From a virus: DNA of 41,084 bases. The notes under the pieces were generated by a model that did not search any database, was not told where the DNA came from, and saw only the letters and a program-made list of their open reading frames with translations. This document shows, one piece after another, positions 2,125 to 40,406 of the stretch; within the stretch, counting starts at the first letter, position 1, and the number at the start of each line of letters is the position of its first letter. The translations under genes and the position numbers were made by a program. The DNA lies in IMG/VR virus record IMGVR_UViG_3300025141_000240, positions 1 through 41,084 of that record. One strand, written 5' to 3'.

Positions 2125-2568
2125 TTAGAAACGTTCTTTATGTCTCTGAATGAGATCTGTGTAATCTGTTTTCTTCCAAAGGCCGATTGTACTTTTTCTT
2201 CTAAGATTAGTTATCTTCCTTCTCATATATCTACGGAGAAGTTTTGATTGCTCTGGGAAGAAATATTTAATACGAGAATATTTTTCCTTATTCTCAGCAC
2301 CAAGAAGTTTGGCAAATGAATCTATTTCATCTATTGCCTTACGCGCATAACGTTTATTAGAATAGTAATTTACATTCCATCCTAATAAATCCTTTCTTTT
2401 GCCATAAGTCTTTTGTCCAGGGATACCTGGGTAATTATAATCAAGTACTTTAACTCTTGGACGTTTACTGGACGGAGTATCCTTACTGTGTCCTTTGTAT
2501 GAGAATTTTACATATTCAACGCTTTCGCTAAGAGTTGGTAAAGATAATAATAGTTCTTTCAATTTCAC
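2125..2568 (-). CDS. Small basic protein with MKLKELL leader
   Basis: 147 residues starting at GTG (2568). The N-terminus MKLKELLLSLPTLSESVEY carries the short leader shared by several genes of this window, with LSE at residues 13-15 as a possible gp21-type cleavage site. The rest is rich in Lys, Arg and Tyr with no membrane segment, which suits a nucleic-acid-binding or packaged head protein. The start has no clear Shine-Dalgarno sequence; a TAAAGATA element sits only 5 nt upstream. Function unknown. Confidence 0.7.
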   Translation of the reverse strand: MKLKELLLSLPTLSESVEYVKFSYKGHSKDTPSSKRPRVKVLDYNYPGIPGQKTYGKRKDLLGWNVNYYSNKRYARKAIDEIDSFAKLLGAENKEKYSRIKYFFPEQSKLLRRYMRRKITNLRRKSTIGLWKKTDYTDLIQRHKERF

Positions 2569-2573
2569 AAATT

Positions 2574-2581
2574 TATCTTTA
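2574..2581 (-). promoter_or_regulatory. Putative late promoter element TAAAGATA
   Basis: The minus strand reads AAGTAAAGATAAATTT and then the GTG start at 2568. If this is a -10 box, the transcript begins at or next to the start codon. It lies in the 30-bp gap between divergent genes. Confidence 0.5.
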
Positions 2582-2598
2582 CTTACAAAGGAAATGAA

Positions 2599-3245: not shown

Positions 3246-3262
3246 TAAAGGATAACGGTGAA

Positions 3263-3641: not shown

Positions 3642-3650
3642 GCCGTTCCT

Positions 3651-3901
3651 TTAATCTCCACTAAGTTTTTTACTTTTTTCAACCGTATGTGTATGATCTT
3701 CTACCTCATTACACTTCCAGTTTTTCACTTTATGAACGTGCTCTTCCCATCTATAAAATAAATTTGGTCTAATACCGTGCATAGTACTTATAGTTTTCCC
3801 ATTTCCATTTTCATCAACTTCAGACCTATGTTTGTGTCCTTCATATTAGCTTGTAATCTTTTGAATAATCCTTTATCTTCTAAGAGTTCCCTTAATTTCA
3901 C
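3651..3901 (-). pseudogene. MKLRELL-leader His-rich protein, broken by a one-base frameshift
   Basis: GTG at 3901 with a GAGG site starts MKLRELLEDKGLFKRLQAN. Near 3848 the coding sense moves to another frame, which continues YEGHKHRSEVDENGNGKTIS, then EEHVHKVKNW and VEDHTHTVEKSKKLSGD to a TAA at 3651. One extra T in AATAT would join both parts into a protein of about 82 residues. The HxH, DENGNGKT, HVH, HTH pattern is shared with the intact gene at 4582-4734. Left alone, the first frame ends at 3788 (37 residues). This is either a real mutation or a sequencing error. The GNG-T/HxH pattern suggests metal binding; function unknown. Confidence 0.6.
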
Positions 3902-4613
3902 CTTTTATCCTCTCTATGTTACCGCTCACTCTACGGTCTTTTTTTCTTAACTCTTCTTTTCTCCAAGCAGTAGCAATAGAATTTGTTACTGGTTTATCCA
4001 TCCATACAGCTATTTTATTCCACATAGCATCATATTCTGGTTGATTCTCTTCAATAGGTTTAGAGTTATCTATAACATGAAAATCATCTCCGAATAATGC
4101 TTTAAAGCCACTTATGTTTTCTTTAATTTTTTTATCTGCTTTCTCTATAAACTCTGGTGATACAACTCGGCCTCTTTTTTTATTTCTTTTCTGTGCTGTT
4201 TCTAAACCAACTTTTACGTAAATCATTTTTGTTTCGTAGCCTTTTTTTTCAAGTTTTTTCTTTTCTCTATTTGTTGAATCAACATTACTTCCAGTTCTAT
4301 CTATTGCTATTGGAAGTCTACGATCTGATGAAATTGTTAAATGGTTTTTTGTTTTTTTATTTATTGTAGGAGATATTTCTTTGTTGTATTCTTTTTGTTC
4401 TTCAGATTGCTTTTCTGAATCCAAAGGAATACCTTTTTTTTTATTTAGTTTATTCCTAATCCTGTCTGGATCATTTGCCTTAAATGAGTGAAACAGTTTC
4501 TTCCTAAGAAAACTTTTTCCACTTCCAGGTGTACCAGCGAGAAATACAGCCTTGAAAGTCCACTTGTCGTAAACGCCTTCATTAAGATTTTTTAACAACA
4601 TGCCTATGCCCAT
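3873..4613 (-). CDS. P-loop kinase (zeta-toxin / polynucleotide-kinase-like) with short leader
   Basis: 246 residues. Walker A is LAGTPGSGKS near residues 26-35, followed by DPDRIRNK (substrate Asp region), IDRTGSN and an Arg-rich lid (AQKRNKKRGRVV). These fit the zeta-toxin/PNK branch of P-loop kinases, which phosphorylate nucleotides or nucleic-acid ends. Initiation may be at 4613 or at ATG 4601; the latter gives MLLKNLNEGVYDKW, with LNE right after the start, like the leader proteins of this window. It overlaps the His-rich genes on both sides, so the three form one translational unit. The substrate cannot be told from sequence. Confidence 0.75.
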   Translation of the reverse strand: MGIGMLLKNLNEGVYDKWTFKAVFLAGTPGSGKSFLRKKLFHSFKANDPDRIRNKLNKKKGIPLDSEKQSEEQKEYNKEISPTINKKTKNHLTISSDRRLPIAIDRTGSNVDSTNREKKKLEKKGYETKMIYVKVGLETAQKRNKKRGRVVSPEFIEKADKKIKENISGFKALFGDDFHVIDNSKPIEENQPEYDAMWNKIAVWMDKPVTNSIATAWRKEELRKKDRRVSGNIERIKGEIKGTLRR

Positions 4614-4734
4614 CCTCTGATGATAGAGCTTTCCAATTTTTTATATAATGTTTATGATTAGGACCATTACTGGTTGTGGTAGTTCTACCGTTGCCATCTT
4701 TATTTACTTCTTCCATTAAATCTTTAAGTTTCAC
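4582..4734 (-). CDS. 50-residue His-rich MKLKDLM-leader protein
   Basis: GTG at 4734 with a good AGGAGA site. The product starts MKLKDLMEEVNKDGNGRT and continues with NHKHYIKNWK and DGHRHVVKKS. The D-G-N-G-x-T motif plus paired HxH motifs matches the frameshifted gene at 3651-3901, so the two are paralogues flanking the kinase gene. The stop lies inside the start region of the kinase gene. Four closely spaced His suggest a metal site (inference). Confidence 0.7.
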   Translation of the reverse strand: MKLKDLMEEVNKDGNGRTTTTSNGPNHKHYIKNWKALSSEDGHRHVVKKS

Positions 4735-4743
4735 CTTGCTCTC

Positions 4744-5416: not shown

Positions 5417-5429
5417 CTTTCTTCTCCTT

Positions 5430-5720
5430 CTAATTTCGTTGTTCTCTTCCAGACATTCTTCTTTTTATTTCATCACTAAACTTTGTAAGACGTTTAGTTA
5501 TTTCTTTTTGTTTTGCTTGTAAGTTTTGTAAGTCTTGAGCTGCTTTAGGTTTTAAAAGTAAATAACCTGGTTTTTCCATTAAATTTGTATAAAGAGTTTC
5601 AATTTCTACCTTAAGAGTATCAAAACTTGATACTAGCTTTCTTATTTCCGCTTCCAAATGTTTATCATCTTTTTTAACCATAGGGTCTTCTTTTTCTTCT
5701 AACAGTTGTTTAAGTTTCAT
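5430..5720 (-). CDS. Coiled-coil protein with MKLKQLL leader
   Basis: I choose ATG 5720 over the upstream in-frame start at 5759 because it follows a strong GGGGGAG site and gives the leader MKLKQLLEEKEDPM seen in its neighbours. The product has 96 residues and is mostly charged helix (AEIRKLVSSFDTLKVEIETL), with a Lys/Gln-rich C-terminus (QAKQKEITKRLTKFSDEIKR). It overlaps the preceding gene. Internal head or scaffold-type protein is a guess from the leader; function unknown. Confidence 0.65.
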   Translation of the reverse strand: MKLKQLLEEKEDPMVKKDDKHLEAEIRKLVSSFDTLKVEIETLYTNLMEKPGYLLLKPKAAQDLQNLQAKQKEITKRLTKFSDEIKRRMSGREQRN

Positions 5721-5880
5721 CTTTCTCCCCCCTTTTTTTCTTTTTAACCATTTGTTCAAAAGAAATTAGACCATTCCCAAGAGTTGGTCTTCTTATCAAT
5801 GGCATTAGAGTTCCGTGATGTAAAACATTTCCACCTACCGCAGAACTAACTACTTGTTCTCTAATTTCCTTTAATTTCAT
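5710..5880 (-). CDS. 56-residue MKLKEIR-leader protein
   Basis: ATG at 5880 follows an AAAGG site and overlaps the end of the preceding gene by 20 nt. The product begins MKLKEIREQVVSSAVGGN, continues TLMPLIRRPTLGNGLISFEQ and ends in a basic tail. The N-terminal pattern is shared with the genes starting at 2568, 3901, 4734 and 5720. Its end overlaps the next start, so it sits in a tightly coupled run. Function unknown. Confidence 0.6.
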   Translation of the reverse strand: MKLKEIREQVVSSAVGGNVLHHGTLMPLIRRPTLGNGLISFEQMVKKKKRGEKDET

Positions 5881-8439: not shown

Positions 8440-8937
8440 ATGAATTTAGACAATGTTTTTAACGAAGTTTTGATAAACGAGCTAGCAAGAGCTGATCTTA
8501 AGGGGGCTGAAAAAGCACTTAAGGACGGAGATTGGGATGAGGTTGCTAAAATTTATATACAGAATACAGAAAATCGTGGTATGGATGATCACGCCAAAGT
8601 GATAGCAGGACTTGGATCAACATTCAGACCTAAGAAGGGAGAGGAGGACGTTCTTGTCGGAAAAGATGAAGACGGAGAAACAATTACTCTTACTAAAGAT
8701 GATGTTGTTGCTTTAAAGAAAGCAATTAAAAAACATATAAATTATGAGACAAAAGCAACTAAGAAAAGTAATGAGAATGCTAAAAAAGCTGCTGAGCAAA
8801 GTGAAAAAGACAGCGAAGATCTAAAAAATGCTATGCCTAAGACTGAACTTATTAAAAATAAGAATGAATCTGCCAATGAAATATATAATATTATTGATTA
8901 TATTAATGGCAAGCCAAGATGGTATAAAAGAGACTAA
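8440..8937 (+). CDS. Leader-bearing charged protein, candidate internal head protein
   Basis: I prefer ATG 8440 to the in-frame ATG at 8428, because GGAGAG lies just before it. The product has 165 residues. The N-terminus MNLDNVFNEVLINELARAD contains INE at residues 12-14, a consensus site for T4 gp21-type protease. The remainder is hydrophilic and Lys/Asp/Glu-rich, without enzyme motifs, as in T4 internal proteins. It heads a cluster of four leader-bearing genes. The packaged-protein role is an inference. Confidence 0.7.
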   Translation: MNLDNVFNEVLINELARADLKGAEKALKDGDWDEVAKIYIQNTENRGMDDHAKVIAGLGSTFRPKKGEEDVLVGKDEDGETITLTKDDVVALKKAIKKHINYETKATKKSNENAKKAAEQSEKDSEDLKNAMPKTELIKNKNESANEIYNIIDYINGKPRWYKRD

Positions 8938-8972: not shown

Positions 8973-9629
8973 ATGAATGTTATAGAACTATTAAATGAAA
9001 ATTTTCTTTTAGAGAAACAAGTAGGAAACTCATTGCTTTTATTAGATATTGATGATACACTACTCACAGCTCAAAATATTTTTATTTATAGAAAGCTTTC
9101 AACCGATAAGGCTGAAGTCAGGCTTACGCCTGAGCAATATGCTAAAGATCCAGCTTCTACAGTTAAGAGCAATAAACAATATTATGACTATAGAGAATTT
9201 CGTAATGCTGATAAAGTAGCTCAATCTATTAAGACTGGATTACCTATTGTTCCTAACTTAAAAGAAATGGATAGATATATTCAACGTGGTTGGAAGATTG
9301 GTATTTTAACTGCTCGCGGTATGGAAGATGTGATTGCAAAAACTATGCAAGAATGGTTAAAGATAAGAAATAAGAAAGGTGAACTTGTAGATGTTGATTT
9401 GCCAAGAAGATTAGTAAATGCTATAAATGATGACAATAAGCATTATCCAGGAGCTACAGACTTTGAAAAGAAAACTAACGTAATAAAAAAATTATCAAAG
9501 AAATTTAATCAAATTATCTTTGTTGATGATGATATAAAGAATGTAAAAGCTGTAAAAAATATGGTAAAGGAAGAAGGAATTAAAAACGTAATGGTGAAAT
9601 TTGCCACAGCAAAACCAGGAGATAAGTAA
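8973..9629 (+). CDS. HAD-superfamily phosphatase with N-terminal leader
   Basis: 218 residues. HAD motif I is LLDIDDTLLT (nucleophile Asp near 25-28), motif II is ILTARG (Thr near 114), and motif IV is IIFVDDDIKNV near 181-191. The cap is small. Such proteins remove phosphate from nucleotides, sugars or nucleic-acid 3' ends, as in the phosphatase half of T4 polynucleotide kinase. Residues 1-18 (MNVIELLNENFLLEKQVG) precede the fold and carry LNE and LLE sites, as in the neighbouring leader proteins. The stop overlaps the next ATG. Confidence 0.8.
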   Translation: MNVIELLNENFLLEKQVGNSLLLLDIDDTLLTAQNIFIYRKLSTDKAEVRLTPEQYAKDPASTVKSNKQYYDYREFRNADKVAQSIKTGLPIVPNLKEMDRYIQRGWKIGILTARGMEDVIAKTMQEWLKIRNKKGELVDVDLPRRLVNAINDDNKHYPGATDFEKKTNVIKKLSKKFNQIIFVDDDIKNVKAVKNMVKEEGIKNVMVKFATAKPGDK

Positions 9630-10351
9630 TGAACTTAAGAGAAGAAATGAGGTTCAATGGAATAATTGGACACAACAGATTTTTAATAAATGAAATGGCA
9701 GCTAAACATTTAGTAGATGTGATCAAAGATATTAAAGATGGTAAAATAGAACAAGCAGTGAAGGATTATAAGGGTCCGGCTGGTGGAGTAAGAAGAACGG
9801 TGAATGTTTACATTAAAAACAATCCTGGCCAAGATAATAAAAATTTTGAAGAGTTTATAAGTGCTTTTATTGAAAAGGCAAAAAAAGAAGGAGCTGATAA
9901 ACCTACAAGACAGTATGTACAGAAGACTGCTGAACCAGGTAGACAAGGACAACCAGCTGCAAAGAAAAGAAACGAAAAGATGATCGTTAAAAAATATAAA
10001 AGCATTGAAGAGTTTGAAAAAAATCTTAAAGATAATATATCAGATGCTGAACTTAAATCAGAAATGAAGGATACTATAGAAGATTTAAGCGTTGGTGGCA
10101 TTCACGATGATGATAAAGATATTGTCAAAAAGCTTAAAAAATTTATTAGTAATAATGAAGGAAAAAAAGCAGCAGTTAAAGCTTTAGCTGATGTTCTTTG
10201 GGGTGGAAAAATATCAACTAGAGATTTTGGATTGACCGCAGAAAGACCAGAAGGTGGGATAACACCTGAATCTATAGCAAAAGCAGATGAAAGAAGAGAA
10301 AAGATTAAAAAGAAAGAAGAAGAAGAAAAAAAGAAGAAGGGGAAGGCATAA
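9629..10351 (+). CDS. Leader-bearing basic protein, candidate internal head protein
   Basis: 240 residues. The leader MNLREEMRFNGIIGHNRFLINE ends in INE at residues 20-22. The mature part would be Lys-rich (TAEPGRQGQPAAKKRNEKM) with a long C-terminal Lys/Glu helix (ERREKIKKKEEEEKKKKGKA). This composition suits a DNA-associated packaged protein. It is coupled by one-base overlaps to the HAD gene before it and the 242-residue gene after it. No enzyme motif is visible. Confidence 0.7.
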   Translation: MNLREEMRFNGIIGHNRFLINEMAAKHLVDVIKDIKDGKIEQAVKDYKGPAGGVRRTVNVYIKNNPGQDNKNFEEFISAFIEKAKKEGADKPTRQYVQKTAEPGRQGQPAAKKRNEKMIVKKYKSIEEFEKNLKDNISDAELKSEMKDTIEDLSVGGIHDDDKDIVKKLKKFISNNEGKKAAVKALADVLWGGKISTRDFGLTAERPEGGITPESIAKADERREKIKKKEEEEKKKKGKA

Positions 10352-11079
10352 TGGAATCAGATAGAGAAGTTATATTAAAAGAAACTTATAATTATAAAGG
10401 TAACATGTTTTGGGAAAACTATATGCTTTCTAATATAGTAAGAACTGTAGCTAAAGATTTAAATGAATTTGAAAATCCAGAACTAGTAGCTGAATTTTAT
10501 ACTACTTTGTACGGAGAAGACTCAGCTGAACTATTTGAAGATATGATAAATAATAAAGAAGTTTTAACAGAAGCTGCTAAAGTAAAAGGAGTTCTTTTAT
10601 TTGAAAGCACTGGAGAAGAGAATGTTAAAGCTTATTTAAATGAAGTAGCATTCTCTTCTGTCGGACTTGGAGGAGTAGTTTCAAATGTAGCTACAGGTAC
10701 TGCGAAAAAGCAAGGAAAGGAAGTAGCCCTTGGAGTTCTTGGTGGAAAATTTTTGAGAGGCTTATGGTCTAAATTTAAAGGTATTTTTAGCAAAGGGAAC
10801 TTTACTACAATTGGAGATTTTCTAAGGAATGGTTTTGATTGGGCAAAAAATCTTGTACAAGGTGGAATAGATTGGGTATCAAAATCTCCATTTTTAAGTA
10901 CTATAGTTCCTATTCTTATGGTCGTTGGAACAGTTGCTGGTGCAAAAGCTCTTTTGAATAAGTTGAGAAAGAAGGCTGGTAAGGGTAAGATGTCACGATC
11001 TGAAGAAGTTTCATTTGAACGAGTAGCAAAAAAGAACGCCGATAAGGTGAAGAAGGCGAGAGAAAAAGTTCTAAATTAA
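10351..11079 (+). CDS. Leader-bearing protein with hydrophobic/amphipathic segments, ejection-type candidate
   Basis: 242 residues. Two consensus sites are present, LTE near residue 74 and LNE near residue 97, followed by a Gly-rich segment (SVGLGGVVSNVATG), amphipathic stretches (KFLRGLWSKFKGIFSKG) and a transmembrane-like helix (FLSTIVPILMVVGTVAGAKA) with a very basic C-terminus. The same order (leader, LNE, glycine-rich hydrophobic stretch, basic helix) is seen in the protein at 39822. Membrane insertion during DNA ejection is an inference from this architecture. Confidence 0.65.
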   Translation: MESDREVILKETYNYKGNMFWENYMLSNIVRTVAKDLNEFENPELVAEFYTTLYGEDSAELFEDMINNKEVLTEAAKVKGVLLFESTGEENVKAYLNEVAFSSVGLGGVVSNVATGTAKKQGKEVALGVLGGKFLRGLWSKFKGIFSKGNFTTIGDFLRNGFDWAKNLVQGGIDWVSKSPFLSTIVPILMVVGTVAGAKALLNKLRKKAGKGKMSRSEEVSFERVAKKNADKVKKAREKVLN

Positions 11080-12159: not shown

Positions 12160-13020
12160 ATGGAAAATAATTATAAACAGTTCATAGACTCGATTACTTC
12201 AGGAAGAGGAGTAGAAAATGATTTTGCATCAGTCACTTCTTTTTATGGTAGTAGAATAATAACTTCAGCAGATGGTGTTGGAACTAAAATTCTAGTAGCA
12301 ATGGAATTAGAGAAATATGATACTATTGGAATTGATTTAGTGGCAATGAATGTAAATGACATTCTCACTAAAAGAGCAACTCCTTTAGGCTTCTTAGATT
12401 ATATCGCTTGCCATAGAATAGAACCATTCTTTGAAGAACTTTTCTCAGGCATAGAGAAGGGATGTGAATTAGCTGAGTGTTCTTTACTTGGTGGAGAAAC
12501 GGCAGTTATGCCAGAGCTATATGAAGAAGGGTATTTTGATTTAGCTGGCTTTGCAATCGGTGGAGAATATTATACAGCAGATAGGCCAAAAAGTTTAACT
12601 AAGAAAGGAGATATATTATATGGTATACCTTCTTCTGGTATACACTCAAATGGACTTACTGTAGCAAGAGGTGTATTACCAACTACGTTCTATGAAGAGC
12701 TTCTCACGCCTACACGCATATATACAAAAGAAGTAAAAGAAATAGAAGGACACGGTGGTGGAATTCGTTTAGCACATATAACAGGCGGCGGCTTTGATAA
12801 TATCATTAGAACAATTCCTAGTAATCTAAAATATATATTAAATTGGAAATGGGATATACCAGAGATATTTCTTGAGATTCAAAATAGAAAAAGGTGGACA
12901 GATGAAGAAATGTCTAAAGAATTTAATATGGGCATTGGAATGGTGTTTGCTGCAATGGAAGATGATAGAAAACATTATGATGGTAAATTCATAGAGATTG
13001 GATATTTAGATGATTTTTAA
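12160..13020 (+). CDS. purM: Phosphoribosylformylglycinamidine cyclo-ligase (AIR synthase, PurM)
   Basis: 286 residues, shorter than cellular PurM (about 340). It makes aminoimidazole ribonucleotide from FGAM with ATP, step five of purine synthesis. Family signatures are present: SADGVGTKILVAMELEKYDT, IGIDLVAMNVNDIL, LLGGETAVMPELY, then SSGIHSNGLT, the ribose-phosphate segment PTRIYTKEV, HITGGGFDN and FNMGIGMV. The N-terminal helix is abbreviated. The end overlaps the methyltransferase gene by 11 nt. The ATG lacks a Shine-Dalgarno sequence. With prs at 16432 it points to phage-boosted purine supply. Confidence 0.9.
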   Translation: MENNYKQFIDSITSGRGVENDFASVTSFYGSRIITSADGVGTKILVAMELEKYDTIGIDLVAMNVNDILTKRATPLGFLDYIACHRIEPFFEELFSGIEKGCELAECSLLGGETAVMPELYEEGYFDLAGFAIGGEYYTADRPKSLTKKGDILYGIPSSGIHSNGLTVARGVLPTTFYEELLTPTRIYTKEVKEIEGHGGGIRLAHITGGGFDNIIRTIPSNLKYILNWKWDIPEIFLEIQNRKRWTDEEMSKEFNMGIGMVFAAMEDDRKHYDGKFIEIGYLDDF

Positions 13021-16431: not shown

Positions 16432-17388
16432 ATGTCTGAAATAGCTTTAGTCGCTGGACGTTCTCACTATGACCTTACAGAAAGAATTTATAAACACATT
16501 AAAGAAAATAAAAATCAATGTCAATTGATAAGAAGAGAGATTACAGATTTCTCTAATGGTGAAATTTATATTAGATATTTAGATTCAATTCGTGGTAAAG
16601 ATGTCTTCATTTTACAGACTTTTAATGGTGATCCTAACAAAGATCTTACAGAATTATTATTATTAGCTCATACGGCATGGGAAGCTTCTGCACGAAGAAT
16701 CACATTGGTTACACCATATCTATATGGTTCAAGGCAAGATAGAAAATCTAAGCCGAGAACTCCTATAACTATCAAACTTATGGCAGATTTATTTAAAGCA
16801 GCAAAGGCTGATAGAGTGATAACTGTATCACTTCACAGCCCTCAAAGTACTGCTGCTTTCGATATTCGTTGTGATAATATTAGTACAGCTAAAATATTTA
16901 TAGATAAACTATTTGAATTACACAAAGAAAATAATTATGTAGTTGTTTCCCCTGATGTTGGTGGATTAGCTAAGTGTAGATATTACGCCAATATACTTGG
17001 AGCAGAATTAGCATTTGTTGATAAGCGTAGATATGCAGCAAATAAATCTGAAATACTACACTTCATTGGAGAAGTAAAAGATAGAAATTGTTTAGTGTTA
17101 GATGATATGATCGATACTGCTGGAAGTGTAACTGAAGTTGCAAATGGATTAAAGGAAAAAGGCGCTCTAGGAATAGACTGCCTTGCTTCCCATTTAATAC
17201 TGTCTGGAAACGCTATCGAAAAAATAATAAATTCCCCTTTTCGAAAAATTTATGGCACTGATTCGATCCAGCACGAATCTTTGCCAGTTTGTTTTGAACT
17301 TACAAATATAGATGAGTTATTAGCTGATGTAATTATAAACATTAATGAAGATCGTTCAGTTGGGGAACTAGTGGAGCATAAAGCATGA
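16432..17388 (+). CDS. prs: Ribose-phosphate pyrophosphokinase (PRPP synthetase)
   Basis: 318 residues, full length for the family. It turns ribose-5-phosphate and ATP into PRPP, the start of purine, pyrimidine and NAD synthesis. Recognisable parts are FSNGEIYIR, VTPYLYGSRQDRKSKPRTPI (flexible catalytic loop region), SLHSPQ, SPDVGG and the PRPP loop VLDDMIDTAGSV near residues 222-233. It starts directly after bS21 and overlaps the next gene (ATGA). With purM it suggests support of purine nucleotide supply during infection. Confidence 0.92.
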   Translation: MSEIALVAGRSHYDLTERIYKHIKENKNQCQLIRREITDFSNGEIYIRYLDSIRGKDVFILQTFNGDPNKDLTELLLLAHTAWEASARRITLVTPYLYGSRQDRKSKPRTPITIKLMADLFKAAKADRVITVSLHSPQSTAAFDIRCDNISTAKIFIDKLFELHKENNYVVVSPDVGGLAKCRYYANILGAELAFVDKRRYAANKSEILHFIGEVKDRNCLVLDDMIDTAGSVTEVANGLKEKGALGIDCLASHLILSGNAIEKIINSPFRKIYGTDSIQHESLPVCFELTNIDELLADVIININEDRSVGELVEHKA

Positions 17389-20358: not shown

Positions 20359-20979
20359 ATGAAAATTACTGATGTAGTAAATAGTGTTCTATCTGAAGAG
20401 CCAAAGACTCAGGATAAAAATAAAAAGAACTTAAAAGTTTTTTATAAAACAGATATTTTAATTCAAGGGTTTCCTGAAAGAAGAGCAAAAGAAGAGGAAC
20501 CAGTTAAAGCTCTAGAGGTTAAGAAGCCTGGGACGGAAGCTGATGTAACAGCACCAACTTCTGAATCAACAATAGTAGAAGAAATCTTAAAGACATCTAA
20601 TCAAGGTGAATTGACAATCCCTGCGAATGAAGCAGATAATATACAAACTCTTGAAGATTTAATTGATTATCTTGGAGATAACAAAGGAGGTGGCAAGCCA
20701 ATTATTAATGATTTAGTGGAAGAAGTAATCTTAGCTGTTGCAGGTGTTGGAGCAAAACCATTAGAGAATATAGTTAATGAAGGTGATAAGATTTTCATAG
20801 ATATTGACTATGGAAAAGAAAAATCAGATTCTGTAGGGCTTAGAGTAAATAAACAAAGTGGTAGTACAGCGATGTCTATATCAATGAAAAAGGACAATAA
20901 ACTTATTCCTGGAGAATTTGACATAGAACAACTCAATAAACAATTAGTGTATTATCGTAATACGTTATTTGGTAGTTAA
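20359..20979 (+). CDS. Leader-bearing hypothetical protein
   Basis: 206 residues from ATG 20359 (GAAGG site), preferred over the TTG at 20344. The N-terminus MKITDVVNSVLSEEPKTQ resembles the other leaders and holds LSE at residues 11-13. A low-complexity Pro/Glu/Lys linker (KPGTEADVTAPTSESTIVEE) precedes a folded C-terminal half. The stop overlaps the sigma gene start (TAATG). Function unknown; it may be packaged. Confidence 0.65.
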   Translation: MKITDVVNSVLSEEPKTQDKNKKNLKVFYKTDILIQGFPERRAKEEEPVKALEVKKPGTEADVTAPTSESTIVEEILKTSNQGELTIPANEADNIQTLEDLIDYLGDNKGGGKPIINDLVEEVILAVAGVGAKPLENIVNEGDKIFIDIDYGKEKSDSVGLRVNKQSGSTAMSISMKKDNKLIPGEFDIEQLNKQLVYYRNTLFGS

Positions 20980-28451: not shown

Positions 28452-28949
28452 ATGAAAATTAAAGATATTATCGATGATGTCGAATTCGAAGATCTCCTAT
28501 TAACAATTAATGAAGAAAAAGAATCTGATACTTATGTTAAAAAGGCCGTTGATAAAGTTGGTAAGAATGTTGAATACAAACAAGTAGGTGCCTTAAAGGG
28601 CGAAGGACTATCACCAGATTTAGGTCAATGGAAAAGATCTCACGATTCTCAAGTAACTAAAGCCAATAAGATTAGAAGTAGTCTTCTTGGTGGAATGGGA
28701 GATAAAGATAAGATTGCAGCAGCTTTAAGAGAGCTTAGAACTTTAACTTCAAATATTAAAAGCTTGAGAAGTAAGATTAATAAGGCTATTCCGAAAGCAG
28801 CAGCGAAACCAGGAGAGCAAGAAGCTTCAAGGGCAAGAGCATCAGCTGCTGAAAAAAAAGAAGCTGAAAAAACAGCTTGGAAGAGAAGGGTAGGAAGTAA
28901 ATTAAAAAATCAAATGTCTAATTTTGGCGCTATAAGTAGGAACAAGTAA
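28452..28949 (+). CDS. Leader-bearing basic protein, candidate internal head protein
   Basis: 165 residues with an AGGAGGG site. The N-terminus MKIKDIIDDVEFEDLLLTIN is followed by EE, so INE (residues 19-21) is a good gp21-type site. The mature part would be very basic (SNIKSLRSKINKAIPKAAAK, then KKEAEKTAWKRRVGSK). It lies immediately before the protease gene and overlaps it (TAATG). By analogy with T4 internal proteins it may be packaged with DNA. Confidence 0.7.
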   Translation: MKIKDIIDDVEFEDLLLTINEEKESDTYVKKAVDKVGKNVEYKQVGALKGEGLSPDLGQWKRSHDSQVTKANKIRSSLLGGMGDKDKIAAALRELRTLTSNIKSLRSKINKAIPKAAAKPGEQEASRARASAAEKKEAEKTAWKRRVGSKLKNQMSNFGAISRNK

Positions 28950-29563
28950 TGGAAAGTTTATTTTTAGAAGACTTTAGTTTTATTGAAAAGTATGAACTAT
29001 TTGAATCTGAGCAAGAAGGGAACAAGAAATTTTTTCTTAGGGGAGTTTTCTCAAGAGTAGATCATCCAAATAAGAATAAAAGAATTTATACCCGTGGTGT
29101 GATGGAAGATGCGATTAATTCAGTTAGTGAATCTATTACAAATAGAGGCTTGGTAGGTGAGCTTGACCATCCACCATCACCTAAAATTAATGTGAAGGGT
29201 ATTTCACACGTTATTACTAAACTTACAATAGCTCCTGATGGTGCTGTTCTTGGTGAAGCGGAAGCTTTGAATACAGAACCAGGAAGAACACTTAAAGAGT
29301 TAATGGAAGCAAATGTAAGACTTGGTGTATCTACTAGAGGGCTTGGAAGTGTCGAGCCGTATAACGGACCACTTGTTAAGGAAGGTACGGGATATGTATC
29401 AGTAAAACCTGGCTATCGAATGAAAGCTATTGATATAGTTTTTGATCCATCACAGGAATCTTTCCCAAATTATGTAAGAGAAGAACTCGAACATCATACA
29501 GCAGTAAATCTTGGTGGTACAACAAAGTTCAGTAAAGTTTGGGAAGATGTATTCGAACTTTAG
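28949..29563 (+). CDS. Prohead core protease, T4 gp21-like
   Basis: 204 residues. GELDHP at 70-75 and GVSTRGLGS at 127-135 carry the His and Ser of the gp21 family of serine proteases, related in fold to herpesvirus assemblin. Strand segments YTRGVMEDAI and YRMKAIDIVFDPS also fit. In T4 gp21 degrades the core and trims head proteins after (L/I)-x-E. Its own N-terminus (MESLFLEDFSFIEKYELFE) contains LFLE- and LFE-type sites for self-processing. Many proteins in this window carry matching sites. Confidence 0.92.
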   Translation: MESLFLEDFSFIEKYELFESEQEGNKKFFLRGVFSRVDHPNKNKRIYTRGVMEDAINSVSESITNRGLVGELDHPPSPKINVKGISHVITKLTIAPDGAVLGEAEALNTEPGRTLKELMEANVRLGVSTRGLGSVEPYNGPLVKEGTGYVSVKPGYRMKAIDIVFDPSQESFPNYVREELEHHTAVNLGGTTKFSKVWEDVFEL

Positions 29564-29572: not shown

Positions 29573-30175
29573 ATGAGTAAAACTATAAACGAAATCCTGT
29601 TAAGATCTGGAACAAGAGAAAGACAGGATTATTTAAATGAAATGCAAGAAAGTGAAGAGTATCCTTGCAATCTATGCGGAAAGGCTTTTAAGTCACATGA
29701 AGAATATGATAAGCATAAGAGTGGTGAAAATAAAAAGAAGAAATTTTATTGTAAAGGCTTGAAAGAAGAATCATACGAAGAATTTGACGAAGAATTGTAT
29801 GAATCTGCATCTGGTTATTTTGTTAGATATATGGAGAAAGCAGTTAGCAAACTTGAAGCAAAAGATTCTTTGACAGATAAGGAACAAAAGAGCCTTAATG
29901 CAGCTAAGAAAGGTCTTAAGACTTGGAAAGGAATAAAAGATGAAGCTGATAAAAAAAGGCTTGAGAAAAAGCTTTATAAGCAAGTGGCTACAATGGGAAT
30001 ACTTGTAAAGAAATCAAGAAAATTGGATGCTTCTGATACACCTTTTAAAAAGGAACAAAAGAAAATGAAGAATGCTTTTAATAAAGCTAAGGACTATTAT
30101 GAATGTCAAAATTGTGGCAAAAAGTTCAAAGATATAAGTAAATATAAGAAACATATGAAATCTCATTTAGAGTAA
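29573..30175 (+). CDS. Two-finger C2H2 zinc protein with N-terminal leader
   Basis: 200 residues. Finger 1 is CNLCGKAFKSHEEYDKH (about 27-43), with a further Cys downstream. Finger 2 is the very C-terminus, CQNCGKKFKDISKYKKHMKS followed by H, a classical C2H2 finger. Between them is a Lys-rich helical region. The N-terminus MSKTINEILLRSGTRERQ with DYLNEM has INE and LNE sites. Placed between protease and scaffold, it may be a DNA-binding protein carried in the head. C2H2 fingers are uncommon in phages. Confidence 0.75.
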   Translation: MSKTINEILLRSGTRERQDYLNEMQESEEYPCNLCGKAFKSHEEYDKHKSGENKKKKFYCKGLKEESYEEFDEELYESASGYFVRYMEKAVSKLEAKDSLTDKEQKSLNAAKKGLKTWKGIKDEADKKRLEKKLYKQVATMGILVKKSRKLDASDTPFKKEQKKMKNAFNKAKDYYECQNCGKKFKDISKYKKHMKSHLE

Positions 30176-30314: not shown

Positions 30315-31139
30315 ATGGCAGTAGAAGACGAAAGCGTTGATATTCTCAACGAAGATCTAAGTCCAGAAGCTGAATCTCTTCTTAGAGAAAAGTTGGAGAC
30401 ATGGAAAGAAGAAGTTATGGTTTCTTTGATGGATGAAGCCGAAGAAGAGAAAGAGAAAATGGTTCAAGAGTTAGAGGAAACTAATCTTGAATATAGAGAA
30501 AAACTTAAAGAAGAATTTGCTGGTAAATTACTTGAAGCTTTGAAAGAAGCTAAAGATGTTATCAGAGCTGAAGTGCTTGCAGAGACTTATGAAAATAATC
30601 CTGAGTTACAAGTACTTGAAACAATTAAAGAGCTTGTTGCTCCTACTCTTGATGAAGACTATCTTGGCAATGCATATGCTAATGAACTTCAAACTCTTAG
30701 AGAAAGAGTGTTAGAATTAGAGGAAGAAGCAAAGCTTGAAGAAGGCGCAAAAACTCTTGCTGAGTTAGTCGCACCGTATTCTGAAAAAACTCAAAACATT
30801 CTTATCTCACTTATTGATGAGGGTGGATCAGAAGAAGTTACTGAACAATTTTACGAGCTTATCAAGAACTTAGAAGGACTTGATGAAGAAGACGAAGATG
30901 ATGAAGTAGACAATGATTTTGATGATGATGAAATTGAAGAAGACGACGACGATGAAGACGACGATGATGATGAAGAGGAGGATGATGATGAAGAAGAAGA
31001 CGACGAAGAAGACGACGAAGAGACCGAGGAAGACACAGATGAGGAATTTGACACCTATATTAAAGAAGGTGAAGAGGGAGCAGAAAAGATAACTCCAATA
31101 AATTCCGTTAAAGAACTAATCAGAAAAAGATCTAAGTAA
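30315..31139 (+). CDS. Prohead core scaffold protein, T4 gp22-like
   Basis: 274 residues between protease and capsid genes, the position of T4 gene 22 (269 residues). It is almost all helix (WKEEVMVSLMDEAEEEKEKM, ELQTLRERVLELEEEAKLEE), with an extreme Asp/Glu run at about 192-240 and a basic end (NSVKELIRKRSK) that probably contacts the capsid shell. ILNE at residues 10-13 and other sites would allow destruction by the protease during maturation. Confidence 0.85.
   Translation: MAVEDESVDILNEDLSPEAESLLREKLETWKEEVMVSLMDEAEEEKEKMVQELEETNLEYREKLKEEFAGKLLEALKEAKDVIRAEVLAETYENNPELQVLETIKELVAPTLDEDYLGNAYANELQTLRERVLELEEEAKLEEGAKTLAELVAPYSEKTQNILISLIDEGGSEEVTEQFYELIKNLEGLDEEDEDDEVDNDFDDDEIEEDDDDEDDDDDEEEDDDEEEDDEEDDEETEEDTDEEFDTYIKEGEEGAEKITPINSVKELIRKRSK
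30880..31045 (+). repeat. Low-complexity GAN-triplet tract
   Basis: A purine-rich run of GAT/GAC/GAA/GAG codons encodes the Asp/Glu tract of the scaffold. It is prone to slippage and length change. Confidence 0.8.
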
Positions 31140-31283: not shown

Positions 31284-32828
31284 ATGCCTTATATGAGTAA
31301 AGATGCAAGAATTGCTGAAGAGCAACGTCTTACAAACAGGTGGGATTGGCTTACTGAAGATATTGAAGATTACGAACAAAAGTATAACGTTTCGTTAGTA
31401 CTTGAAAATTCATACGATCAAATGTTAGCTAACCAACAAGTTTCTGAAGGCTGGCTTGAAAGTAACGTTCTTAATGAAGATGAGCAAGAACTTAATGAAG
31501 CACCTACAATTTCAACAGATGCTGGAAGTAACCTTATTCCTAGGATCTTGTTTCCCATTATTAGGCGTGTTTATCCTACCCTTATTGCTAATAAGCTTGT
31601 TTCAATACAACCTATTCAAGCAAGAACTGGTGTTATCTACTATATTAGATATGACTTTACAAATACCAAGGGTGGAATCACAGCTGATGATGAGTACACA
31701 GGTGTAATTCAACAAGGATCTCCCGCGTATTCCAGTTGGTATACAAGTGAGAAGATCGGACCTTTTACTACTACTATTGCTACAACTGGAGACAGTACAG
31801 TTATTGATTGTGGAACTGAAATTTCTGCTTTCTTGGGTGATACCCTTTACAATGCTCTCGGCGCTCTTCAGTTCTCTCTCAAGAGAATCGAAGTTTATAA
31901 TAATGCTGATGGTACATTGTTTTCAACTACTATGCAACCTATGGTCGCTGGTGGTGGATCACCAACATGGTCTGGCGAATATGACACATATTATGATGTA
32001 AGTGCTGGCGATATCTATCTTAGAGATGTTGCTGATACTAAATCAGCTTGGGTTGGTGGTGAAGCAGTAACTGTATACTTAGTATACAATCAAGAAGCAT
32101 CAGACGATATTCCTGAGATGGAATTCTCAATCAGCAGCGAGACTGTTGAAACAACCGAACGTAAATTGAAAGTACGTTGGACTAAAGAAGCCGAGCAAGA
32201 CATGAGAGCTTATCACAAGATTGATGTAGAAGGAGAACTTGTGAAAGTTGCTTCTATGGAAATGAACTATGAAATCGACCGTGAAATCATAAGTTTTATT
32301 GGTGATCAAGTACAATCTTCATTGTCTTTCTTGCACGACTGGACATCTGATTCCCCTAATACGGGTAACAATGCAGCTGGAAACTATCTTGATAGACACA
32401 GAGCTTTGACTCAAAAAATCTATCAAGTAAGCGCAAAGATTGCGTCTTACAATAGACAAGGACCAGCGTCTTGGGCAGTTGTATCACCACAAATTGGAGC
32501 AGTATTTAACATGCTTCCTGACTATAAGGGTGAAATTGCTGCTGGATCATTTAATGTTTATGAAGCTGGAGCTTTGGGAAGTGGACTAAAGATTTTTGTT
32601 GATCCTAACAGAACTAGTGATGAAGTTCTTCTTGGATACAAGAGTTCAAATAGTACCTACGGTGCTGGAGTTGTTTACGCACCTTACGTAAACTGGGTAT
32701 CTGGTCTTGTGACAGATCCTGATAACTTCAATAGTATTCGTGGATTCTTCTCTCGTTACGCTCTACACAAAGTAGTTCGTGGACAATGGCATTATGGTAA
32801 AATTACCATAAGCAACCTTAGAATATAA
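31284..32828 (+). CDS. Major capsid protein, T4 gp23-like
   Basis: 514 residues (T4 gp23 is 521). The N-terminal 72 residues form a charged propeptide ending in VLNE (65) and ELNE (72); T4 gp23 is cut after Glu65. The mature start would be DEQELN... or APTISTDAGSN. Typical HK97-fold segments follow: LIPRILFPIIRRVYPTLIAN, the loop EYTGVIQQGSPAYSSWYTSE, and C-terminal strands VLLGYKSSNSTYGAGVVYAP and SGLVTDPDNFNSIRGFFSRY. GGAGG site. The leader contains GAAAAGATAAAAT and TAAAGGTA, late-promoter-like. Confidence 0.93.
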   Translation: MPYMSKDARIAEEQRLTNRWDWLTEDIEDYEQKYNVSLVLENSYDQMLANQQVSEGWLESNVLNEDEQELNEAPTISTDAGSNLIPRILFPIIRRVYPTLIANKLVSIQPIQARTGVIYYIRYDFTNTKGGITADDEYTGVIQQGSPAYSSWYTSEKIGPFTTTIATTGDSTVIDCGTEISAFLGDTLYNALGALQFSLKRIEVYNNADGTLFSTTMQPMVAGGGSPTWSGEYDTYYDVSAGDIYLRDVADTKSAWVGGEAVTVYLVYNQEASDDIPEMEFSISSETVETTERKLKVRWTKEAEQDMRAYHKIDVEGELVKVASMEMNYEIDREIISFIGDQVQSSLSFLHDWTSDSPNTGNNAAGNYLDRHRALTQKIYQVSAKIASYNRQGPASWAVVSPQIGAVFNMLPDYKGEIAAGSFNVYEAGALGSGLKIFVDPNRTSDEVLLGYKSSNSTYGAGVVYAPYVNWVSGLVTDPDNFNSIRGFFSRYALHKVVRGQWHYGKITISNLRI

Positions 32829-37140: not shown

Positions 37141-37185
37141 ACACTATTATAAATTTTTCATTAATTTTCTTCAACTATTTTTAAG

Positions 37186-37193: not shown

Positions 37194-37204
37194 AAATAAG
37201 AAAT

Positions 37205-37384
37205 ATGAACAGATTAATAACGATACGTCCTACGGACAAAACTAGAAGAATTCTAAGCAAGAAAGAAGATATGTCTTGTGAAGTTGAAATATTGCGTGAA
37301 GGTATATTCGAAGGAACTATAGTAAATATGACTTCTTCTGGTAAGTTTGAAATCAGATTGACTGAATTAATAGAGGTTAAGTAA
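37205..37384 (+). CDS. 59-residue hypothetical protein
   Basis: ATG 37205, product MNRLITIRPTDKTRRILSKK then a beta-rich part (EVEILREGIFEGTIVNMTSS, FEIRLTELIEVK). The stop overlaps the next start (TAATG), which supports translation. It is the first gene behind the late element. Function unknown. Confidence 0.65.
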   Translation: MNRLITIRPTDKTRRILSKKEDMSCEVEILREGIFEGTIVNMTSSGKFEIRLTELIEVK

Positions 37385-39813
37385 TGGCGGTTATAGAGAG
37401 ATTTAACTATTTAGATTATAGTACCGATGCTTCATTTTATGGAGATACCACTGGAAGAATAGAATTAGCTGGATATCCAAGTGATTTAGTATTAGCTACT
37501 TCATTCGATAGTGACATAGATGCTGATTATGCAATATCAACCGTTACTGGAGTTGGAGGAGATACTGTATCTATTGAGAATTTTGGAGTATTTGGACAGC
37601 ATGTACTAATCTCAAATGGTGGTTATGTTAGATATGATTTAGCTAATTTTGAATCTATGACAACAGAAGGTTCTGTTAAGTTTAGAGTTAGACCTAATTT
37701 TAATAATAATGGTGGCTATCAACAATTCTCAGCTACTACCGCACCAACAATACCATCTGGTGGAGATTCATATTACTTTAAACTTTTTATAGGTGGTGAT
37801 TCTTTTGGAGATACTTATGTAGCACTTGATGAAGGTGATGCAATGATTGATATCAGTAATGCTGTTAATCTATCTATTACAGGAGCAACAGCTTCAGTAA
37901 CTGGTGACTCTAAAGTAAGAGTTACTTCTGATACACTTGGAGATAGTATTTTAATTTCAGCTCCAGCTAGTGGAAACAATCTTATTACCTTAATGACTTC
38001 TGTTGAGACAGGTAAGATTCCTAATGCTCCAGTTGCAGATACAGAGATTTTAAGTTTTTATAATGGAAGTGGAGATTCTAATAGAATCTCTCTTATTCAC
38101 GATACAAGTTCTAATATAATTTTAAGAATGTATGATGATAATGGAGATACTCAAGTAAATGCAACTCTTGGATTGTGGAGTAATCATTATCTTAATTGGA
38201 ATGCTTTTGAATTAAGTTGGAATGAATCTTTAACTCAACTCTTCTTAAATGGAGCTCAGTTTGGAGTTACTACAACTGGATTTAGTAGAGGTGATAGTAC
38301 ATATTTATTCTTACAATCAAATAGCGGTGATACATATAGATATGATGAATTATTAGTTTATAATGAATATCAAAATAATGGAGCTTATACAGTAGAAACT
38401 ACTGCATTGCAACAATATGATGATACAGAACCTTATGTAGATATTCACTTTGGTACAGGTTTTGTTGAAGGTGAAGTAATAGATTTAAACTTAATTGCTC
38501 ACGCAGATACTACATATGTAGTAAAAATTGGAGCTACTTGGTATTATTATTTATCTGGATCTTGGAGAGTTTCAGATGGTAGTTATTCACAATCAGTAAC
38601 TCCTGGAATAATGGAAACTCAATTCTCTGATCTTACATTTAATTCAGATGCAGATTTAATCATAAGAGCTTATTTTAGTTCAGATGGTCAAGAACTTATA
38701 TATCTTGATGAGATTGGAATAGTAGTAGAAACAGGTGCTGCTGAAACAGCTATCATAACTGGTACAGTAGATTTAACTACTGCTGTTGATCTTTCAAGTA
38801 ATTACCTTTTAACTATTACAACTCAAGCAGGTGATAGTGAAGTAAATTTAAAGACTGGTGCTGGTGACACTACTGCCATAACATTAGCTGAGATTAAAGC
38901 AGCTATAGATGCAGCTAATGTTCCTGGATTAGAAGATGCTACAGATGATGGATCTGGACATTTAGTTCTTCAAACAACAGCAACAGGCACAGATGCTACT
39001 ATCGCCGTTAGTTCTGGTGCTACTTTTGATGCCTTGGCAACTGTATGGGGTTTTACAGCAACTGATACGGGAGAAATTGCTGTAGGTAGTACGGTAGATT
39101 ATAGTGATTTATTTAGATACATAAGGGCTAAACTTGGTGAACCATTGATACCTACTGAAATAACAGATGAACAACTTGAAGATTGTTTATCAGATGCTAT
39201 CTATCACTATAATAGAAGAAAAAATTTCGAAGAGAATGTTCTTTATACTAATCTATCTGGTAATGCAAGAAATGGATTTGATATACCAGCTACAGTTGGT
39301 GGATCAGATAACATTATAGATATTATAATGAGGCCAAGATTTCCATTTACTTATTATGCAGGACGTACTGATTTAATTACAAATCTTTATGTACAATATT
39401 TATTCCAAAGATATAAGTCTGGATTTACACAAATTCTTACTGATTACTATGTTACTATAACAACTGAAGAAGATATTAATGTAGTTCTTGGTACTCAAAT
39501 TAAATGGGAAATATTAAACGGAAAGTTATTCATTTGGCCTGAGCCAGATGCAATGGATATAGCGATTAGATATAAAGGAAGCCTTACTGCTTCAGAAACT
39601 GTAAGTAATTATTGGGTAAGACAATTAACATTAGCGGAAGCTAAGATAGTACTTGGAAACATAAGATCAACATTTAAGTCAGGAATTCCTGGTGGAGCTG
39701 AGATGCTTCAACTTAATGGTGAAGATTTAAAGCAAGAGGGTTTTCAAGAAAGACAAACTCTATTAGAGAAACTTGATAAGAATCAAGAACCACTGTTCTT
39801 GGAATTCTTCTAG
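37384..39813 (+). CDS. Virion structural protein: fibre-like N-terminal part joined to a neck-type C-terminal domain
   Basis: 809 residues. Residues 1-560 are beta-rich with a concanavalin/LamG-like part (GYVRYDLANFESMTTEGSVK, LGLWSNHYLNWNAFELSWNE) and 13 Gly-Asp-Ser/Thr tripeptides. From about 575 the style changes to a connector-type domain: LFRYIRAKLGEPLIPTEITD, LEDCLSDAIYHYNRR, FIWPEPDAMDIAIRY and LTLAEAKIVLGNIRS, with QERQTLLEKLDK at the end. The C-terminal pattern resembles T4-like neck (gp13/gp14-region) proteins. The fusion of a decorated fibre-like part to a neck domain is unusual. Confidence 0.7.
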   Translation: MAVIERFNYLDYSTDASFYGDTTGRIELAGYPSDLVLATSFDSDIDADYAISTVTGVGGDTVSIENFGVFGQHVLISNGGYVRYDLANFESMTTEGSVKFRVRPNFNNNGGYQQFSATTAPTIPSGGDSYYFKLFIGGDSFGDTYVALDEGDAMIDISNAVNLSITGATASVTGDSKVRVTSDTLGDSILISAPASGNNLITLMTSVETGKIPNAPVADTEILSFYNGSGDSNRISLIHDTSSNIILRMYDDNGDTQVNATLGLWSNHYLNWNAFELSWNESLTQLFLNGAQFGVTTTGFSRGDSTYLFLQSNSGDTYRYDELLVYNEYQNNGAYTVETTALQQYDDTEPYVDIHFGTGFVEGEVIDLNLIAHADTTYVVKIGATWYYYLSGSWRVSDGSYSQSVTPGIMETQFSDLTFNSDADLIIRAYFSSDGQELIYLDEIGIVVETGAAETAIITGTVDLTTAVDLSSNYLLTITTQAGDSEVNLKTGAGDTTAITLAEIKAAIDAANVPGLEDATDDGSGHLVLQTTATGTDATIAVSSGATFDALATVWGFTATDTGEIAVGSTVDYSDLFRYIRAKLGEPLIPTEITDEQLEDCLSDAIYHYNRRKNFEENVLYTNLSGNARNGFDIPATVGGSDNIIDIIMRPRFPFTYYAGRTDLITNLYVQYLFQRYKSGFTQILTDYYVTITTEEDINVVLGTQIKWEILNGKLFIWPEPDAMDIAIRYKGSLTASETVSNYWVRQLTLAEAKIVLGNIRSTFKSGIPGGAEMLQLNGEDLKQEGFQERQTLLEKLDKNQEPLFLEFF

Positions 39814-39821
39814 GAGATAAA

Positions 39822-40406
39822 ATGGAACTTAAAGATTATTTGGAAGAAAAAGAAATAAAGCAAATAGAAAAAGAACTTAATGAAGATGTAGCTACTTTTA
39901 TCGGTACAGCTTTGGGCTATGGAACTGTTGGTTTGTTAGGTGCTTTCGGTGGATCTCTTTTAATTCTTGGTGGAATAAAAGCTGCTAAGGGATTGAAAGG
40001 TCTTTGGCAAAAAATATTCAAAGGCACTAAGGAATTATTTAATCCAGGTAAAGTAGTTAAAGAAGTAAAGACCGATGCTCGGGTTAATAAAGTAAAGCAA
40101 CAAATGGAAGTGGCTAAAAGAAAATATGAAGATGAATTGAAATATGTTTATATAGCAATAGCCAATAAAGATTTTCAACAAGCGAGAGAAGAGTTTGAGA
40201 AAATTTCTTCAAACCTACAAAATACACCTGATGTGCATAAATCAATAATAACAGAAATTACTAAATCATTAAGAATGCCTCCTGTTTATATTCAAAGTCC
40301 TGGAAATAAAAGTTATCAAGCAGTTAAAAAAGTAATAAACATTAAACTTGCAAGAGCTGCGGCTGCTGATGTAGAAAAAGCATGGCAAGGTGCTAGTAGA
40401 GAATAA
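39822..40406 (+). CDS. Leader-bearing membrane-active protein, ejection-type candidate
   Basis: 194 residues with an AGGAGA site. The leader MELKDYLEEKEIKQIEKELN ends in LNE (residues 19-21). Next comes a Gly-rich hydrophobic stretch (GYGTVGLLGAFGGSLLILGG, about 31-50), then a basic amphipathic part (KGLKGLWQKIFKGTKELF) and a helical C-terminal half. T4 Alt, a packaged enzyme, begins MELITELFDED, a comparable leader. The architecture repeats that of the protein at 10351. A packaged, membrane-inserting protein is inferred. Confidence 0.7.
   Translation: MELKDYLEEKEIKQIEKELNEDVATFIGTALGYGTVGLLGAFGGSLLILGGIKAAKGLKGLWQKIFKGTKELFNPGKVVKEVKTDARVNKVKQQMEVAKRKYEDELKYVYIAIANKDFQQAREEFEKISSNLQNTPDVHKSIITEITKSLRMPPVYIQSPGNKSYQAVKKVINIKLARAAAADVEKAWQGASRE

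Follow-up and report, generated by a model that had tools for sequence, protein, structure and literature searches.

The window analyzed here is the whole 41,084-nucleotide (nt) stretch of IMG/VR virus record IMGVR_UViG_3300025141_000240 and, to judge from its genes, is a fragment of an uncultured phage of the T4 superfamily, distantly related to T4. Profile matches place T4-type terminase, portal, and capsid genes around a gp21-type prohead protease (Table 1), a protease present in 13 records; an earlier sequence-only reading of this stretch had reported a gp21-like protease at 28949, and matches to both PF03420 and phrog_207 bear it out. The scaffold gene lies immediately 5' of the capsid gene in 13 of 13 records, and its product was assigned by position and composition because a PHROG search with it returned no match. 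The major capsid protein contains a conserved site, ELNE↓APT, after residue 72, which is analogous to FLTE↓AE in the T4 sequence with which it was compared. The form (L/I)(N/T)E↓AP is kept in 12 of 12 sequences in the alignment of relatives, and a cut of the same specificity as that of the leaders described below is predicted there.

Table 1. Features of the window. Genes are named in the text by the coordinate of their first base, and ↓ marks a predicted cut site.
Coordinates	Strand	Feature	Evidence
2125..2568	-	Leader MKLKELLLSLPTLSE↓S on basic protein, GTG start	GTAAAGATA upstream
3788..3901	-	MKLRELLE leader, broken 37-aa frame	Three-frame translation
3873..4601	-	Zeta/polynucleotide-kinase-type P-loop kinase, leader MLLKNLNE↓G (4578-4601)	PF06414 E=1.6e-14
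4582..4734	-	Leader MKLKDLME↓E on 50-aa His-rich mini-protein, GTG start	AGGAG 6 nt upstream
5430..5720	-	Leader MKLKQLLE↓E on coiled-coil-like protein	N-terminal likeness, T4-derived pattern
5710..5880	-	MKLKEIRE N-terminus on 56-aa ORF, unsupported	N-terminal resemblance only
8440..8937	+	Leader MNLDNVFNEVLINE↓LARADLKG, core or cargo	Homologues between protease and scaffold in relatives
8973..9629	+	HAD-type phosphatase, leader ...FLLE↓K (8973-9014)	PF11019 E=4.5e-12
9629..10351	+	Leader ...RFLINE↓MAAK on Lys-rich protein	Sequence
10351..11079	+	Possible 98-aa propeptide ending YLNE↓VAFSSVGLGG	Site region resembles 39822 family; weak
20359..20979	+	Leader MKITDVVNSVLSE↓E	Family alignment
28452..28949	+	Leader ...LLLTINE↓EKES, directly upstream of protease	Sequence, position
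28949..29563	+	gp21-type prohead protease (Peptidase_S77), predicted cutter	PF03420 E=1.9e-17; phrog_207 E=5e-41
29573..30175	+	Leader ...DYLNE↓M on two-finger C2H2 zinc-finger protein	PF00096 E=2e-9
30315..31139	+	gp22-like acidic scaffold, N-terminus MAVEDESVDILNE↓D	Position and composition
31284..32828	+	gp23-like major capsid protein	phrog_138 E=3e-58
39822..40406	+	Leader MELKDYLEEKEIKQIEKELNE↓D, then Gly-rich hydrophobic segment; downstream of Ad2 adaptor	Sequence

The sequence-only reading had listed 13 N-termini, all present in the window at the positions given, as capsid-targeting-like leaders on an encapsidated set of unrelated proteins. These leaders comprise 8 to 23 residues, beginning with a Met and an amphipathic stretch, often M-K-[LI]-K-[DE]-[LI], and end in (L/I)xE, mostly [LI]NE. 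Capsid targeting of this kind is established in T4, whose IPI to IPIII and Alt likewise carry a short leader on unrelated bodies; gp21 cuts it after (L/I)xE there, as is predicted here, and the hydrophobic positions of the T4 leader may recur in the window. Both phages encode a gp21-type protease and a scaffold. They differ in that T4 IPIII starts MKTYQEFIAE, whereas the leaders here mostly start M-K-[LI]-K-[DE]-[LI] or M-N-[LFV] and frequently have [LI]NE, and in that the T4 bodies are small anti-restriction proteins, as opposed to the kinase, phosphatase, zinc-finger, and Gly-rich hydrophobic proteins of the window.

Because 41% of the N-termini of the window and its relatives contain [LI]xE at residues 7 to 30 (vs. 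26% of internal Met segments), (L/I)xE alone is weak evidence, and the leaders could resemble one another by chance or composition, the Lys-, Glu-, and Leu-rich N-termini of an AT-rich phage being alike and often holding such a site. Unsupervised motif finding (two-component EM/mixture model) on the N-termini isolated no clean leader class, as that explanation would have it. Against it, the pairwise likeness of N-termini in the window exceeds that of a column-permuted null that preserves position-specific composition (6 pairs vs. 0.97, P = 0.0005), and every one of the eight best pairs falls between leader genes; the leaders are more alike than random N-termini, the comparison by which the sequence-only reading could have failed. 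Similar short leaders on unrelated bodies also occur outside the window, with the identical MNILQLLTE on two neighboring unrelated proteins of a relative (G006).

Within the window and its relatives, a strict leader pattern matches 7.4% of N-termini and 0.7% of internal Met segments. A T4-derived pattern, which allows hydrophobic residues at positions 3/6 or 4/7 (IPIII targeting positions 4 and 7), matches 37 of 579 N-termini versus 23 of 1,891 internal Met segments (P = 2e-10). This short pattern matches six of the listed genes, and the longer leaders (9629, 20359, 28452, and 29573) do not fit it. Asparagine is enriched as x at the listed (L/I)xE sites (8/21 vs. 12/147, P = 8e-4), and [LI]NE is carried by 7 of the 13 listed genes versus 2 of 43 others, one of which encodes the scaffold (P = 2e-4), both tests being somewhat favorable to the list because it was hand-picked. 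Together with the conservation of junctions in the kinases (79), the phosphatases (8), and further families, and with leader matches in virion proteins detected by mass spectrometry, the permutation result and the asparagine bias make chance very improbable and largely refute it for the set, while it is possible for 5880, 4734, and 3901.

Profile matches identify the kinase, phosphatase, and zinc-finger protein that had been thought possible members of the set, each with a leader (Table 1). Among relatives of the kinase, [LIMV]xE stands directly ahead of the fold in 79 of 79, with E at position -8 and L/I/M/V at -10 from the first strand; the background rate of [LIVM]xE at one fixed position is 2.3%. 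The x position varies widely, as do the leaders (MKTFxELQE, MKIHDILE..., MKVNSFIQHLSE). The AF2 model of the kinase (mean pLDDT 89; residues 1 to 4 below 50) has a predicted PNK fold. IMG/VR searches with the single kinase or phosphatase protein found nothing, but alignment queries did find matches, amounting to at least 577 matching stretches for the kinase family. All phosphatase homologues carry an early [LIF]xE, at variable spacing (8/8), orthologues of the zinc-finger protein have [LI]xE ahead of the first finger (5/5), and the junctions in the 20359 family are LSE, LSE, LLE, ILE, and ILE (5/5).

These junctions bear on a further alternative, in which the N-terminal stretches are uncleaved helices that dock to a membrane, the host RNA polymerase, or the tail, and the E-G pair serves folding of the body. 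The xxEG sequence persists in longer proteins that have the kinase domain in their interior (EVTEG in Atu_ph07 gp53; also L066, L078, and L143), so that E-G may partly serve the fold, or may mark an internal cut. The leader of 39822 is modeled as a helix at low confidence, in an AF2 model (pLDDT 60) too poor for fold search. However, a free x and a varied leader are more in keeping with a protease site than with a docking surface, the capsid protein shows the same (L/I)xE logic, and T4-type leaders occur on enzymes detected in virions. We consider uncleaved docking helices unlikely.

Not every listed protein need be cargo. Gene 28452 likely encodes a core protein, because it lies directly upstream of the protease, in the place of T4 gene 68. 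It flanks the protease together with 29573 and the scaffold, and three relatives (G004, G005, and G012) have their homologues of 8440 in the interval from protease to scaffold; owing to these positions, 28452, 29573, and 8440 may be parts of the prohead core, like T4 gp67 and gp68. T4 core proteins likewise bear gp21-type sites (PMC9026906). Extended to the set, the leaders would address proteins to the prohead core, and several of those listed would be core or scaffold components that are cut and expelled, a possibility that we rate somewhat below even and that overlaps with encapsidated cargo, the two readings parting over what becomes of some members. In contrast, the core cluster includes neither the kinase nor the phosphatase, nor 39822, 20359, or the minus-strand genes, and recognizable enzymes such as the first two would be odd as scaffold.

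Gene 10351, absent from the original list, may belong to the set, with a possible long propeptide. The body after its predicted site is hydrophobic and basic, possibly membrane-active. By eye only, the body of 9629 looks like two proteins of relatives (G006_30289 and G007_6427); Pfam searches of the cargo of these relatives, G006 and G007, gave no clear identity except one HD hydrolase. A relative of 39822 in G009 starts MKSFNEYL, like T4 leaders, and no relative of this family was found among isolated phages.

The list of 13 holds as a set but not in every member. Gene 3901 is broken and is a frameshifted relative of the 50-amino-acid ORF 4734, since its continuation (EHVHKVKNWK...DHTHTV) lies in another frame, and 5880 is unsupported, having no homologue. 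No relatives were found for 2568, 4734, 5720, or 5880, and 5880, 4734, and 2568 are weak as individual members. The case for 2568, which has a GTG start, is helped by GTAAAGATA, a shared upstream motif that may be a late promoter, exactly 14 nt before its start codon, the spacing common to six genes of relatives; the motif also lies 38 nt upstream of 8440. Leader genes are not significantly more frequent in operons with the putative late promoter (9/119) than in those with TTGACA/TATAAT promoters (3/70; P = 0.54). The T4 late promoter TATAAATA was rejected as a candidate, being not enriched (11 vs. 8 expected; upstream, 10 vs. 6.9).

Leaders of this type recur on proteins detected in the virions of other phages. 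Among the proteins given as detected in the S-CREM2 virion proteome (PMC10665884, Table 3), the SAM lyase (MKDFDSFLEE), kinase (MKRFDAFLTE), cytidylyltransferase (MKNFSSFLTE), gp13 (MKDLHSFLTE), and gp136 (MQTFSMFFSE) have such N-termini, and Cas9 has RFASFMAE↓AA near residue 25. Across nearly all S-CREM2 genes, the T4-derived pattern matches 6 of 51 detected versus 5 of 167 undetected proteins (P = 0.022), replacing an earlier loose pattern applied to part of the genes (8/19 vs. 19/110, P = 0.028). The P value for the T4-derived pattern is indicative only, because the pattern was drawn up after sight of the S-CREM2 N-termini. The NMNAT of S-SCSM1, reported in the virion (PMC9602691), starts MKSFLQFLKE↓A. 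Several of the enzymes in these two phages (SAM lyase, APH-like kinase, NMNAT, and Cas9) have T4-type N-terminal leaders; they were detected experimentally and are other enzymes than those of the window. The available portions of the two papers do not mention the leader, and in both the authors caution that carry-over into the virion preparation could account for the enzymes they detected (PMC10665884, PMC9602691). In the jumbo phage Atu_ph07, gp53 to gp63 are encoded by eleven tandem genes with leaders that are mostly M[KR]WxQL[TN]E and have E at residue 8 in all; they fall within CDS 31 to 76, a range from which 29 proteins were found in virions, a count that applies to the range as a whole (PMC6102473).

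The explanation that best accommodates these observations is that some ten unrelated proteins of this phage carry T4-type capsid-targeting leaders, are packed via the scaffold, cut by the gp21-type protease, and ejected with the DNA, which we regard as quite probable. The leader would bind the growing gp22-type scaffold core and draw the protein into the prohead, where the active protease would cut on the C-terminal side of the E in (L/I)xE, just as it would cleave LNE↓AP in the capsid protein; the leader would then depart, and the mature protein would remain with the DNA and enter the host with it. Proteins of the protease-scaffold cluster may instead be core parts, cut up rather than delivered. 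We infer packaging, cutting, and delivery from the leaders, junctions, protease, and capsid site, and the kinase and phosphatase would then act early on the host. The cargo set originally proposed is upheld in part, by its T4-type leaders on unrelated bodies, its gp21-type protease, and the matching capsid site, with 28452, 29573, and 8440 as the members that may be core. It may reasonably be called larger than in T4, but in T-even relatives at least 10 types of internal protein with a common leader have been reported (PMC12373910).

Two further systems in other phages have different signals. The N-terminal 30 residues of DarB, from the unrelated phage P1, act as a capsid address for a reporter protein (PMC9024508), a signal longer than and different from the leaders here. 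In SPN3US/phiKZ-type phages, the phage protease removes propeptides from ejection proteins during head maturation (PMC5694885); several of these exceed 100 residues, and the cleavage motif is another one.

For the T4 superfamily at large, the chances seem evenly balanced that one degenerate, swappable tag of 8 to 23 residues loads varied enzymes, the cargo including kinases, HAD phosphatases, Atu_ph07 gp53 to gp63, SAM lyase, nucleotidyltransferases, Cas9, and multidomain proteins in which another (L/I)xE lies internally; the T4 internal proteins would then be a small special case of a general delivery system. From the N-terminal sequence one could then predict, in a form open to test, the phage proteins that are carried in the head and enter the host first, and the tag could explain the enzymes that recur in cyanophage virion preparations and that the authors could not tell from carry-over. 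The PNK/zeta-type kinase family and the phosphatase would be candidates for new early-acting proteins.

The IMG/VR virus record comprises 41,084 bases with a GC content of 32.7%, and no tRNA genes were found in this window. The capsid proteins of isolated phages, such as Rhodothermus phage RM378, are ~25% identical to that of the window, and IMG/VR relatives share 55 to 100% capsid identity with it. The relatives were read as fourteen records, with G011 and G014, near-identical to the window, excluded from statistics. Start codons are predictions, since the gene caller was home-made.

Features located in the window (blank, not given)
Feature	Position	Strand	Remark
T4-type terminase	22142
T4-type portal	24864
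T4-type protease	28949
T4-type capsid protein	31284
Ad2 adaptor	37384
PurM-like metabolic gene	12160-13020		near putative cargo operon; identity read from sequence by eye
PRPP-synthetase-like metabolic gene	16432-17388		near putative cargo operon; phrog_619 match
GTAAAGATA(A) motif	2106	-
GTAAAGATA(A) motif	2582	-
GTAAAGATA(A) motif	6152	-
GTAAAGATA(A) motif	8374	-
GTAAAGATA(A) motif	8402	+
GTAAAGATA(A) motif	20092	+
GTAAAGATA(A) motif	37185	+

All 13 N-termini grouped by the sequence-only reading as a leader-bearing cohort are present in the window, and the cohort stands with exceptions: the frame at 3901 is broken after 37 residues, and the sequence that follows it in a different frame matches the His-rich mini-protein encoded at 4734. 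The segment 3651-3901 (minus strand) is a frameshifted relative of this HxH protein (4582-4734). The ORFs at 2568 and 4734 start with GTG. An [LI]xE site alone is little evidence for a leader, because 41% of all N-termini have one within residues 7-30, as do 26% of internal Met segments. The leader set does exceed chance similarity: against the alternative, named in that reading, that leaders are no more alike than random N-termini, the window holds 6 similar N-terminal pairs versus 0.97 when each column is permuted among window genes, retaining position-specific composition (P = 0.0005), and leader genes form both sides of each of the top eight pairs. The middle residue of (L/I)xE is biased to N (8 of 21 sites in listed proteins versus 12 of 147 internal sites), and [LI]NE occurs in 7 of the 13 listed genes versus 2 of 43 others. 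Because this list was hand-picked, comparative evidence was given more weight.

At least 577 stretches in IMG/VR match the kinase at 3873 (PF06414). Among the best 80, all 79 with a readable core place an E eight residues ahead of the first strand, with L, I, M, or V two residues before that E and the middle residue free; [LIVM]xE at a fixed position has a chance of 2.3%. Leaders in these 79 range from MKTFxELQE, which closely resembles the MKTYQEFIAE of T4, to MKVNSFIQHLSE and MLVNEIISTNLSE. In an AlphaFold2 model (mean 89, confident except at residues 1-4), the ordered body starts directly behind the leader site, and it has the polynucleotide-kinase fold, zeta toxin being a further match. 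Because xxEG is retained before kinase domains internal to some longer proteins, the E-G may be kept in part for the fold, or may indicate a second cut. Five loci (L077, L079, L080, L089, and L111) encode longer kinase proteins with an N-terminal leader and a second xxEG ahead of the kinase domain, an arrangement in which the protease might separate two cargo domains.

Junctions are also kept in other families: [LIF]xE lies close to the start in 8 of 8 phosphatase sequences, five aligned 20359-family sequences read LSE, LSE, LLE, ILE, and ILE, and five zinc-finger sequences read LNE, INE, LEE, INE, and LKE. Leaders and capsid protein show the same site preference, since the capsid keeps (L/I)(N/T)E↓AP (arrow, predicted cut) near residue 70, before the conserved body, in 12 records, the counterpart of T4 gp23 FLTE↓AE.

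Several virion-detected enzymes of other phages begin similarly. For the T4-like cyanophage S-CREM2, a virion proteome is published together with gene coordinates (PMC10665884); virion-detected nonstructural proteins start with MKDFDSFLEE (SAM lyase), MKRFDAFLTE (kinase), MKNFSSFLTE (cytidylyltransferase), MKDLHSFLTE, and MQTFSMFFSE, and the detected Cas9-like gp12 (L153, 7704-10313) carries a CTS-like RFASFMAE↓AA around residue 25. In T4, residues 4 and 7 target and 8 and 10 process, according to a review (PMC9026906); the resulting pattern occurs in 6 of 51 detected versus 5 of 167 undetected S-CREM2 proteins (P = 0.022, indicative only, the pattern having been written once these N-termini were seen). 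The NMNAT of S-SCSM1, detected in virions (PMC9602691), starts with MKSFLQFLKE↓A, and its S-CRM01 and P-SSM2 homologues are alike. In jumbo phage Atu_ph07, 29 of the proteins encoded in CDS 31-76 are virion-detected (PMC6102473); eleven tandem genes in that range, gp53-gp63 by our own count from gp70, all have E at residue 8 and mostly start with M[KR]WxQL[TN]E. Most carry a YRGM motif (L064, covering Atu_ph07 15000-64000; record 39484-50592), one fused to a kinase domain, giving an impression of ADP-ribosyltransferases; a Pfam search of one returned no match. Two neighbouring unrelated genes of relative G006 (18755-19893, L044) share an identical leader, MNILQLLTE; one resembles an ADP-ribosyltransferase by eye (LFHYTNYSKLI), and its Pfam search returned no match. 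Different proteins in G004 and other relatives share the N-terminus MKIRNGFVSNSSSS.

In the window and relatives, GTAAAGAT-type sites, with the GTAAAGATA(A) motif, precede 49 genes versus 3.5 expected; the late genes that they precede include those for capsid, sheath, and adaptor, and several leader-bearing units. Seven sites lie exactly 14 nt upstream of start codons, with none 15-19 nt away. This excess and spacing suggest a phage-specific late promoter, some copies yielding leaderless mRNAs. An operon-based test found no significant association of these sites with leader genes, and the T4-type TATAAATA motif was not enriched.

The first ten residues of T4 IPIII suffice for packaging, and gp21 removes the propeptide (PMC9026906). 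The window encodes genes for this route (protease, scaffold-like, and capsid), and we infer by analogy that its phage would package proteins by their leaders, cut them with the protease, and deliver them to the host. Members 28452 and 29573 of the protease-scaffold cluster may, like the 8440 family, be parts of the core. The leader principle is already known from T4, and the same review suggests it as a general protein-loading route of T4-like phages. In the open-access literature, no paper was found that connects the leader with cyanophage virion enzymes. The analysis adds an uncultured lineage that has a leader style of its own and a larger, partly enzymatic leader-bearing set, a kinase family whose junction is conserved, and a link between the leader and cyanophage virion enzymes.
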